Shown here piece by piece: positions 2,140 to 38,029 of a stretch of 64,000 bases of DNA. Below the pieces are notes generated by a model. It was not told where the DNA came from and ran no database searches. It saw nothing but the letters and a program-made list of their open reading frames with translations. The DNA is from an uncultured Acidimicrobiales bacterium (GTDB lineage Bacteria > Actinomycetota > Acidimicrobiia > Acidimicrobiales > CADCSY01). Location of the stretch: assembly GCA_902805555.1 (NCBI GenBank), contig CADCSY010000120.1, positions 23,572 to 87,571 of the forward strand. The letters run 5' to 3'. Position numbers and translations under genes: made by a program. Numbering within the stretch: the first letter of the stretch is position 1; every line of letters starts with the position of its first letter.

Positions 2140-3315
2140 GTGGCCGACGTCAAGCTCGAGAACGTCAACAAGGTCTACGAGAACGGCTTCCACGCCGTCC
2201 ACGACCTGGACCTCGACATCACCGACGGCGAGTTCGTCGTCCTCGTCGGCCCGTCCGGCTGCGGCAAGTCGACGGCGCTGCGGATGGTGGCCGGCCTGGA
2301 GTCGATCACCGACGGCAAGCTGATCATCGGCGACCGGGTGGTGAACGACGTGCACCCGAAGGACCGCGACATCGCCTTCGTGTTCCAGAACTACGCCCTG
2401 TACCCGCACATGACGGTGCGCCAGAACATCGGCTTCGCCCTCAAGCTCCGCAAGGAGTCGAAGAGCGAGATCGACCGGCGGGTCGAGGAGGCGGCCAGGC
2501 TGCTCGAGCTCACCGAGTGGCTCGACCGCAAGCCGGGCCAGCTCTCGGGTGGGCAGCGGCAGCGGGTGGCGATGGGCCGGGCCATCGTCCGGCGGCCGCA
2601 GGTGTTCCTCATGGACGAGCCGCTGTCGAACCTCGACGCCAAGCTGCGGGTCCAGATGCGGGCCGAGGTGAACCGGCTCCAGCACGACCTCGGCGTCACC
2701 ACCCTCTACGTCACCCACGACCAGATCGAGGCGATGACGATGGGCGACCGCGTGGCCGTGATGGACAAGGGGTGGCTCCAGCAGGTGGACACGCCCCAGA
2801 ACCTCTACGACCACCCCGACAACCTGTTCGTCGCCACGTTCATCGGCTCGCCGCAGATGAACCTCGTGCTCGGCACCCTCGACCTCGGCGGGGCCGAACC
2901 CCACGTCGTGGTGGGCGCCCACCGCTTCGACCTCACGCCCGCCGTGCTGGCCGAGCGCCCGGGCCTGCGAGGGTTCGACGGTGCCGACGTCGTGATCGGC
3001 ATCCGGCCGGAGAGCCTCGAGGACGCAGCGATCGATGCCGGCCGACACCCGTCGACGATCGACGTGATGGTCGAGCTGCGTGAGGGCCTCGGCTCCGAGG
3101 TGGTGGCCCACGCCCGGCTCGACGCCCGCACGCCGAAGGTCGAGACCGCGCAGAAGGACCCGGACGCGAGCTTCACCGGGGGCGGCGGTGTCGAGGTGGT
3201 CGCCCGCCTCGACCCCAGGACCAACGTCCGGATGGGCAACCTGGCCACGCTGAGCGTCGACGTCGAGCGGCTGCACTTCTTCGACCAGGCCACCGGCCTC
3301 GCCATCCGCACCTGA
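2140..3315 (+). CDS. ABC transporter ATP-binding protein, MalK/UgpC/MsmK family
   Basis: Walker [10 protein letters not shown], signature [17 protein letters not shown], Walker [14 protein letters not shown]-terminal regulatory region. Confidence 0.93.
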
Positions 3316-36400: not shown

Positions 36401-37231
36401 ATGACCTTCCCGCTCTACCGTCCGGGGGACGACCCGGGGCCCAGCTTCGCGGAGCTCCTGCGCCGGACCGGTTCGGTTCCCGCCGTCCCCGCGGCATCGG
36501 TCGGGGGCGTCACCCACGGGACGACCGTCGTGGCCATCCGCTTCGCAGAGGGTGTGGTGATGGCGGGCGACCGACGTGCCACCTCGGGGAACCTCATCAG
36601 CCACCGCACGATGGAGAAGGTGTTCCCCGCCGACCGCCACTCGGGGGTGGCGATCGCAGGGGCGGCGGGCCCGGCGATGGACATGGTCAGGCTCTTCCAG
36701 CTCCAGCTCGAGCACTACGAGAAGGTCGAGGGCGTCGAGCTGAGCCTCGAGGGCAAGGCGAACCAGCTGTCGGGGATGGTGCGCAACCACCTGCCGGCAG
36801 CGATGCAGGGCCTCGCCGTGGTGCCGCTCTTCGCCGGCTACGACACCCGCCGCCGCGCCGGGAGGCTGTTCCAGTACGACGTCACCGGGGGCCGCTACGA
36901 GGAGTCGGGCTTCGCCACCACCGGCTCGGGCAGCCTCCACGCCGGCACCGTCATCAAGATGGGCTACCAGGACGACCTCGATCGGGGCGCGTCGCTCGAC
37001 CTCGCGATCTCGGCCCTGTTCAACGCCGCCGACGAGGACTCCGCGACAGGTGGCCCCGACCTGGTGCGGGGCATCTACCCGACCATGGCGACCATCACCG
37101 GGGAGGGCTTCACAAAGGTCGAAGAGGACGAGATCGCCGAGCGCTTCGCCGCACTCGTCGGTCGGCTCTCGACCCCGGACAGCACCACCGCTGCCGGCGC
37201 CGCGCCGAGCATCGGAGGTCTCCTGACATGA
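36401..37231 (+). CDS. prcB: 20S proteasome beta subunit
   Basis: Propeptide ending at HG|TTVVAIRFAEGVVMAGDRRAT (N-terminal Thr after processing). Confidence 0.96.
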   Translation: MTFPLYRPGDDPGPSFAELLRRTGSVPAVPAASVGGVTHGTTVVAIRFAEGVVMAGDRRATSGNLISHRTMEKVFPADRHSGVAIAGAAGPAMDMVRLFQLQLEHYEKVEGVELSLEGKANQLSGMVRNHLPAAMQGLAVVPLFAGYDTRRRAGRLFQYDVTGGRYEESGFATTGSGSLHAGTVIKMGYQDDLDRGASLDLAISALFNAADEDSATGGPDLVRGIYPTMATITGEGFTKVEEDEIAERFAALVGRLSTPDSTTAAGAAPSIGGLLT

Positions 37232-37290
37232 GCGAGCGCAGCGAGCGTGGCCCGAGCGGCCCGGCCGCAGGCCAGGAGCGGACAGCATGA
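37228..37290 (+). CDS. micro-ORF copy 1 (MSERSERGPSGPAAGQERTA)
   Basis: ATG overlaps prcB stop (ATGA); TGA overlaps the ATG of copy 2. Confidence 0.5.
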   Translation: MSERSERGPSGPAAGQERTA

Positions 37291-37345
37291 GCGAGCGCAG
37301 CGAGCGTGGCCCGAGCGGCCCGGCCGCAGGCCAGGAGCGGACAGC
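37228..37345 (+). repeat. perfect 59-bp tandem duplication (2 full copies) between prcB and prcA
   Basis: Unit ATGAGCGAGCGCAGCGAGCGTGGCCCGAGCGGCCCGGCCGCAGGCCAGGAGCGGACAGC at 37228 and 37287, then ATGAGC at 37346. Confidence 0.97.
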
Positions 37346-37349
37346 ATGA
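37287..37349 (+). CDS. micro-ORF copy 2 (MSERSERGPSGPAAGQERTA)
   Basis: Identical 20-aa peptide; its TGA overlaps the prcA ATG at 37346. Confidence 0.5.
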   Translation: MSERSERGPSGPAAGQERTA

Positions 37350-38029
37350 GCATGCCGTTCTACGTCGCGCCCGAGCAGGTGATGAAGGACCGGGCGGACT
37401 ACGCCCGCAAGGGCATCGCCCGGGGGCGGAGCCTGACCGCCACCACCTACGAGGACGGCATCGTGATCTGCGCCGAGAACCCGTCGAACACGTTGCGCAA
37501 GGTCAGCGAGATCTACGACCGCATCGCCTTCGCCGGCGTGGGTCGCTACAACGAGTTCGACCAGCTCCGCATCGCCGGGGTCAGGGCGGCAGACCTGAAG
37601 GGCTACTCGTACAGCCGTGAGGACGTCGACGCGCGGAGCCTGGCCAACAACTACGCACAGATCCTCGGCCAGATCTTCACGAACGAGATGAAGCCGATGG
37701 AGGTCGAGATCCTCGTCGCCGAGGTGGGCGGCGGGCCCGGCGACGACCGGCTCTACCACATCCTCTACGACGGGACCGTGGTGGACGAGACCCGGATGGT
37801 GGTCCTCGGCGGGGACGCCGACGCCATCGCCGACCGGCTCGAGGCCGCCTACCCCGAGCCCGGCTCGATCGAGGTCGCCCTCCGGGCCAGTGCCGGCGCG
37901 CTCGCCGGACCCGACCGGACCCTGGCTCCCGACGACCTCGAGGTGGCCGTGCTGGCCCGTGGCAACGGCCGCCGCGCCTTCCGGCGCATCGAGGGCGAGG
38001 CCCTGGCCGGGCTGCTCACCGCCCCCTGA
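37346..38029 (+). CDS. prcA: 20S proteasome alpha subunit
   Basis: MSMPFYVAPEQVMKDRADYARKGIARGRSLTATTYEDGIVICAENPS. Confidence 0.95.
   Translation: MSMPFYVAPEQVMKDRADYARKGIARGRSLTATTYEDGIVICAENPSNTLRKVSEIYDRIAFAGVGRYNEFDQLRIAGVRAADLKGYSYSREDVDARSLANNYAQILGQIFTNEMKPMEVEILVAEVGGGPGDDRLYHILYDGTVVDETRMVVLGGDADAIADRLEAAYPEPGSIEVALRASAGALAGPDRTLAPDDLEVAVLARGNGRRAFRRIEGEALAGLLTAP

Follow-up and report, generated by a model that had tools for sequence, protein, structure and literature searches.

Organization of the prcB-prcA junction

The window analysed here, a 64-kb stretch of Acidimicrobiales DNA, contains the genes prcB and prcA, encoding the beta and alpha subunits of the 20S proteasome, and between them two 59-nt units (Table 1). 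The units are arranged head to tail and are 100% identical, and the ATGAGC with which prcA begins lies directly 3' of the second one. The resulting order is prcB, a 20-codon ORF, a second 20-codon ORF and prcA, with an ATGA at each junction; the prcB stop codon (TGA, 37229-37231) overlaps the start of the first micro-ORF by 4 nt in this manner. Coordinates, sequence identity and ORF ends thus bear out the preliminary description of this DNA, in which two perfect 59-bp repeats were reported to form a chain of ATGA-coupled micro-ORFs. Both micro-ORFs encode the peptide MSERSERGPSGPAAGQERTA, which is without a match in Pfam. The N-terminus of PrcA, ATGAGCATGCCG, is the same in relatives.

The initial 20 nt of a unit occur twice in the window, compared with 0.01 occurrences expected from shuffled sequences, and a full covariance-model scan of the 64 kb returned no further credible copy. 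The earlier statement that the unit is absent from the rest of the window was therefore right, yet many copies exist in other parts of the host genome. It is unlikely that the repeat at prcB-prcA is an assembly artefact because similar arrays recur at 28 loci besides this one as well as in other genomes.

Table 1. Features of the prcB-prcA junction (positions refer to the window)
Feature	Position	Strand	Basis
prcB, 20S proteasome beta subunit	36401..37231	+	Pfam PF00227, E=2.6e-36; ORF end
Repeat unit 1, 59 nt	37228..37286	+	Sequence; covariance-model match, 93.1 bits
Micro-ORF 1, peptide MSERSERGPSGPAAGQERTA; stop overlaps start of micro-ORF 2	37228..37290	+	Sequence
Hairpin GGCC-GCA-GGCC, unit 1	37263..37273	+	Arms covary in related elements; fold
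Shine-Dalgarno-like AGGAG, 8 nt 5' of micro-ORF 2 start	37274..37278	+	
Repeat unit 2, 59 nt, same sequence as unit 1	37287..37345	+	Sequence; covariance-model match, 93.1 bits
Micro-ORF 2, peptide MSERSERGPSGPAAGQERTA; stop overlaps start of prcA	37287..37349	+	Sequence; ORF call
Hairpin GGCC-GCA-GGCC, unit 2	37322..37332	+	Arms covary in related elements
Shine-Dalgarno-like AGGAG, 8 nt 5' of prcA start	37333..37337	+	
prcA, 20S proteasome alpha subunit	37346..38029	+	Pfam PF00227, E=1.1e-10; orthologue starts

Dispersal of the unit across the host genome

The host genome is a metagenome-assembled genome (MAG) of 2.93 Mb in 135 contigs with 91% completeness (G000). A genome-wide search, as suggested in the preliminary description, placed 51-61 units in this MAG: BLAST gave 51 matches to a two-unit query at E<=1e-3, and a covariance model built from 22 units gave 61. 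We examined 29 arrays and their flanks in detail. They comprise one to five units and are located at unrelated operons. Copies inside one array are often identical, and units at unlinked loci share up to 96% identity over 118 nt.

Scoring of codon usage, with the window as training set, indicates that all arrays but one are followed by a co-directional coding frame, the exception being cut off by the contig end after 48 nt, and that every array except one is preceded by such a frame. On the left side, the stop codon of the upstream gene overlaps the RTGA of a unit in 21 of the 28 assessable arrays; four others extend the upstream gene in frame at its C-terminus, with a stop that overlaps a later start, and the remaining three (C5:59574, C46, C77) begin 23-43 nt past the upstream stop. 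Left-side coupling is hence not universal. On the right, the start of the downstream gene either coincides with the end of the unit or follows an additional, degenerate one, or else the gene is fused in frame.

The genes flanking the arrays are ordinary neighbours within housekeeping operons, as established with Pfam for a sample of pairs that includes gatA-gatB, trpF-trpB, nuoF-nuoG and aroB-aroQ. Five units each are found at the Pfam-confirmed pair hisC-hisB and at the junction of an enoyl-CoA hydratase/menB-like with a UbiA/menA-like gene. Further arrays separate genes for sulfite reductase and PAPS reductase, genes for branched-chain amino acid permeases (livH-livM-type), gyrB and a short gyrA-like start, and dnaK and grpE, with GrpE being assigned by Pfam and DnaK judged from C-terminal sequence only.

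Unit length and the reading path

Coupling via ATGA through a unit of length L requires that L+1 be divisible by 3. Units of 59, 50, 68, 44 and 29 nt (2 mod 3) in the host genome are coupled, and those of 60, 54 and 48 nt (0 mod 3) are in-frame fusions with the downstream gene. None of the array units measured in this genome has a length of 1 mod 3, a 28-nt remnant being counted apart; an apparent pair of 13+46 nt is explained by an internal GTGAGC inside one 59-nt unit. Different single-base insertions gave rise to the 60-nt form at six loci (C17, C46, C65, C74, C86, C92), and a 58-nt form was not seen among the host-genome arrays. In one array (C9) the middle start is lost and two units form an ORF of 110 nt with the phase kept, and in the four arrays that extend the upstream gene C-terminally the stop again coincides with the next RTGA. 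Assuming ten independent states, a number based on our own judgement, 1 mod 3 would be avoided by chance with a probability of about 0.017.

The same rule applies to diverged units of other genomes. With lengths of 50, 56, 65, 68, 71, 80, 104, 128 and 137 nt, the stop codon of their micro-ORF falls exactly on the next RTGA. An array of 85+81+76 nt in G108 forms a single ORF ending on the downstream ATGA, and two further loci (L147, L215) are in-frame fusions. The exception is the decayed 28-nt unit (1 mod 3) at a second copy of nuoF-nuoG, where the stop lies 5-7 nt inside nuoG. Observed across many units of distinct sequence, the length rule represents comparative evidence of selection keeping the path of the ribosome open.

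The nuoF-nuoG pair is present twice in the MAG (G000:C65:10377 and G000:C35:73563), the two copies being 87% identical at the DNA level. Comparison of their junctions, a single pair from the same bin, revealed an array of 60+50 nt in one and the 28-nt remnant in the other. The second region probably reflects either the presence of another, related organism in the MAG or a duplication.

Conserved anatomy of the unit

The elements share a conserved order consisting of RTGAGCGAGCG(N)AGCGAGCG, GGCCCGAGCGGCC, a hairpin, GGAGCGG, four to five variable nucleotides and RTGAGC. Variable alignment positions are concentrated in columns 59-62, within the spacer that precedes the start. These four nucleotides, located just 5' of the unit's final C, vary by locus, and most of the unit is conserved.

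Across 19 element variants, 95 of 99 cells in the hairpin arms, which were delimited by hand, are paired, with compensatory changes at several positions; after shuffling of the arms, pairing amounted to 82% on average and to 90% at most. Arms that changed together in other families include GGCC/GGCC, GGGC/GCCC, GGCGAC/GTCGCC, GGCGGC/GCCGCC, GGCGC/GCGCC and GGTGCC/GGCGCC. The fold of a single unit is no stronger than that of shuffled sequences (z=-1.1). The palindrome GCGGCC-C-GGCCGC that had been pointed out in the unit is indeed present (37256-37268), but it is not kept in related elements and was rejected as the functional core; the comparison favours GGCC-GCA-GGCC in front of the Shine-Dalgarno-like sequence as the conserved structure.

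Predicted duplexes with the anti-Shine-Dalgarno sequence had mean energies of -6.6 for starts supplied by the element, -6.9 for native starts and -4.5 for random 20-mers of the window. This evidence is modest because pairing with the anti-Shine-Dalgarno sequence is common among random GC-rich 20-mers.

Empty sites and other inserts in relatives

Comparison of prcBA among relatives, which had been proposed in the preliminary description, showed that the unit is missing and that prcB and prcA are spaced by -4 nt (ATGA or GTGA) in 60 of the 72 scored relatives. In two family members, G003 (L156) and G004 (L152), the bare overlap lies directly before ATGAGCATGCC. The hisC-hisB and gatA-gatB junctions are likewise unoccupied in relatives, with a bare RTGA overlap in most junctions whose start is readable.

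Two other relatives carry unrelated inserts between prcB and prcA. L087 (JAUXRW010000084.1, ~2803-3000), from another member of the Acidimicrobiales, has a different tandem of 101+95 nt (ATGAGCGAGCTTGCGAGCGAATC... / ATGAGCGAGCTTGCGAGCGAATCGGCAGCACAGG...) that is ATGA-coupled on both sides, and L099 (CADDZP010000033.1, ~2880-3000) has a third, unrelated insert of 119 nt that begins near GTGAGCGAACGCAGCGAGCG and contains it. This junction harbours different elements in three lineages (the window, L087, L099). At two further loci (L064, L089) a gap of 40 nt gives a new ATGA overlap without a dispersed element, and it looks like a local duplication of the region comprising Shine-Dalgarno sequence and start.

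Distribution beyond the host

Among 198 genomes of the order, matches to the model at 1e-4 were confined to the host genome, G016, G472 and G528. The 5' motif was detected in eight of 397 genomes of the phylum, with 29 copies in the host and eight in G290. In G472, a member of another family, a single isolated pair of nearly identical 59-nt units (G472:C125:1959-2082) is located 5' of a cytochrome-oxidase-subunit-III-like gene; it may reflect either horizontal transfer or contamination.

Genomes G290 and G108, which belong to another actinobacterial family, possess tandem, coupled units of 80 nt (L202, L203, L209, L213, L217, L219). Like the host unit, these start with RTGAGCGAGCG(N)AGCGAGCG, have a length of 2 mod 3, and in most cases end on the ATGAGC of the downstream gene; unlike it, they have a different sequence past the first 20 nt. 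One might speculate, although we regard this as rather doubtful, that all of the actinobacterial elements, together with the mycobacterial interspersed repetitive units (MIRU) as the mycobacterial branch, make up one widespread, unnamed superfamily of translation-transparent mobile micro-elements with an RTGAGCGAGC start, a dedicated machinery inserting specifically at RTGA overlaps, and evolution under a rule of length modulo 3.

Discussion

The unit is very probably a short interspersed element, non-autonomous in nature, whose insertion sites are RTGA overlaps of co-directional operon genes and which acts as a translation-transparent cassette. The idea, raised in the preliminary description, of a dispersed element that inserts without breaking coupling gains strong support from the 51-61 units, their location at gene junctions, the empty overlaps in relatives and the length rule. 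We infer mobility from dispersal and empty sites because no transposase or intermediate was identified, and insertion seems a more plausible way of spread than another copying route. A target-site duplication was considered on the grounds that the start letter of the adjoining unit agrees with that of the gene (14 of 15 for ATG, four of six for GTG; Fisher p=0.011). It was rejected: the agreement is confounded by tandem duplication, gene conversion and hand scoring, and a longer duplication is unsupported, as the nucleotides 5' of the start differ between left and right flanks.

Overlaps of -4 nt couple translation efficiently, and spacing of about 20 nt nearly abolishes coupling (PMC10666635); therefore, an insert would do harm if it lacked an ORF in phase. 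The RTGA of the element's start, RTGAGCGAGCG, would serve both as stop of the upstream gene and as start of a micro-ORF with a length of 2 mod 3, and the element's end would provide a new RTGA, combining the stop of the micro-ORF with the start of the downstream gene, with the hairpin followed by the Shine-Dalgarno sequence directly 5' of that start. Once the element has inserted, the native Shine-Dalgarno sequence in the 3' end of the upstream gene would serve the micro-ORF, and the downstream gene would rely on the one brought in by the element. A ribosome terminating on the RTGA of the upstream gene would reinitiate on the micro-ORF, which is presumably translated, and the stop of the latter would start the downstream gene. 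Tandem units would result from later local duplication, which lengthens the relay. The effect on expression may be close to neutral, and such an element would be tolerated at operon junctions that exclude other inserts. In known termination-reinitiation at ATGA overlaps the same -4 nt overlap is used, which is the commonest one and is enriched at genes of heteromeric complexes (PMC10666635); here it is duplicated by an inserted repeat.

Alternatively, the repeat might be a device specific to prcBA in which copy number sets the alpha:beta ratio via the efficiency of successive termination and reinitiation events. A chain of coupled ORFs at the operon of a heteromeric complex fits this idea, and the fpg1 mRNA level of M. 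tuberculosis correlates with how long a MIRU-VNTR region is (PMC2734929). Yet the same 59-nt unit resides in one to five copies at many unrelated operons, the sampled prcBA relatives mostly have the bare overlap, and each unit contains a Shine-Dalgarno-like site, so that ribosome supply need not drop with copy number. As a general explanation, a prcBA-specific regulator was rejected given the genome-wide occurrence of the unit, and we consider the device improbable. Tuning of PrcA:PrcB by copy number, which had been put forward previously, is possible but unsupported as the purpose of the repeat, prcBA being one of many loci and the units having their own Shine-Dalgarno-like sites. The notion that the units represent conserved genes for a small protein, with the peptide MSERSERGPSGPAAGQERTA functional in its own right, is compatible with a micro-ORF frame kept in nearly all units, but it is very improbable in view of the lack of a Pfam match for the peptide, the 60-nt units that yield N-terminal extensions, the other arrays that yield C-terminal extensions in another frame, and the diverged elements that conserve length modulo 3 and not the peptide.

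The many copies per genome and the conserved hairpin with covarying arms beside a GGAG sequence are reminiscent of REP/BIME palindromes moved by a RAYT (Y1) transposase, in which case RNA hairpin or DNA structure would be the main role and coupling a by-product. REP sequences resemble the unit in being short, repeated, palindromic and close to gene ends (PMC12306157); they are, however, extragenic and rarely overlap coding sequence, and those near stop codons are reported to stall ribosomes, not to hand them on. The units do have a stem-loop with compensatory changes, but they are ORFs overlapping both neighbours. Moreover, Y1_Tnp (PF01797) is without a match in the 91%-complete host genome, compared with matches in five of 14 control genomes, and REP sequences are not characterized by insertion at RTGA, by one orientation with respect to genes or by the length rule. 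A REP-like origin thus appears quite improbable. Tandem duplication of the region comprising Shine-Dalgarno sequence and start at each locus, without dispersal, could explain the identical copies within arrays and resembles the 40-nt prcBA gap in two relatives; it is refuted for dispersal by the near-identical units at unlinked loci and by the empty sites, accounts only for array growth, and as the whole explanation has next to no probability.

In its design, and probably in its way of spreading, the element follows the mycobacterial MIRU. The MIRU target was reportedly given as 'DTGA' by Supply in 1997, and MIRU are said to be oriented with their flanking genes; the arrays of the host genome are co-directional with theirs in every scorable case. 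MIRU are units of 40-100 nt at 41 chromosomal loci, often in tandem (PMC2734929), and they insert at start codons with their internal ORF coupled at -4 nt spacing (PMC12548453). Their size and dispersal are matched by units of 59, 50 and 60 nt, and insertion at start codons by the unoccupied junctions of relatives described above. The senX3-regX3 MIRU comprises units of 77 and 53 bp, and its descriptions are limited to M. leprae and the M. tuberculosis complex (PMC4213456); both of its lengths are 2 mod 3, as is that of the host unit. The covarying hairpin followed by a Shine-Dalgarno sequence is described here for the present element and is not mentioned for MIRU in the accessible portions of these sources.

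We call the element MIRU-like and not MIRU because its host is, judging from the nearest named relatives of prcA, a member of the Acidimicrobiales and not a Mycobacterium, and because the likeness drawn here is one of description, with homology a matter of conjecture. The literature searched, with subscription journals largely outside its reach, contained no description of such repeats outside mycobacteria. The natural unit variants make termination-reinitiation in operons amenable to testing, and the hairpin-Shine-Dalgarno-RTGA cassette may offer a ready-made natural linker for coupled expression. The element shows that a design of the MIRU kind extends beyond mycobacteria.
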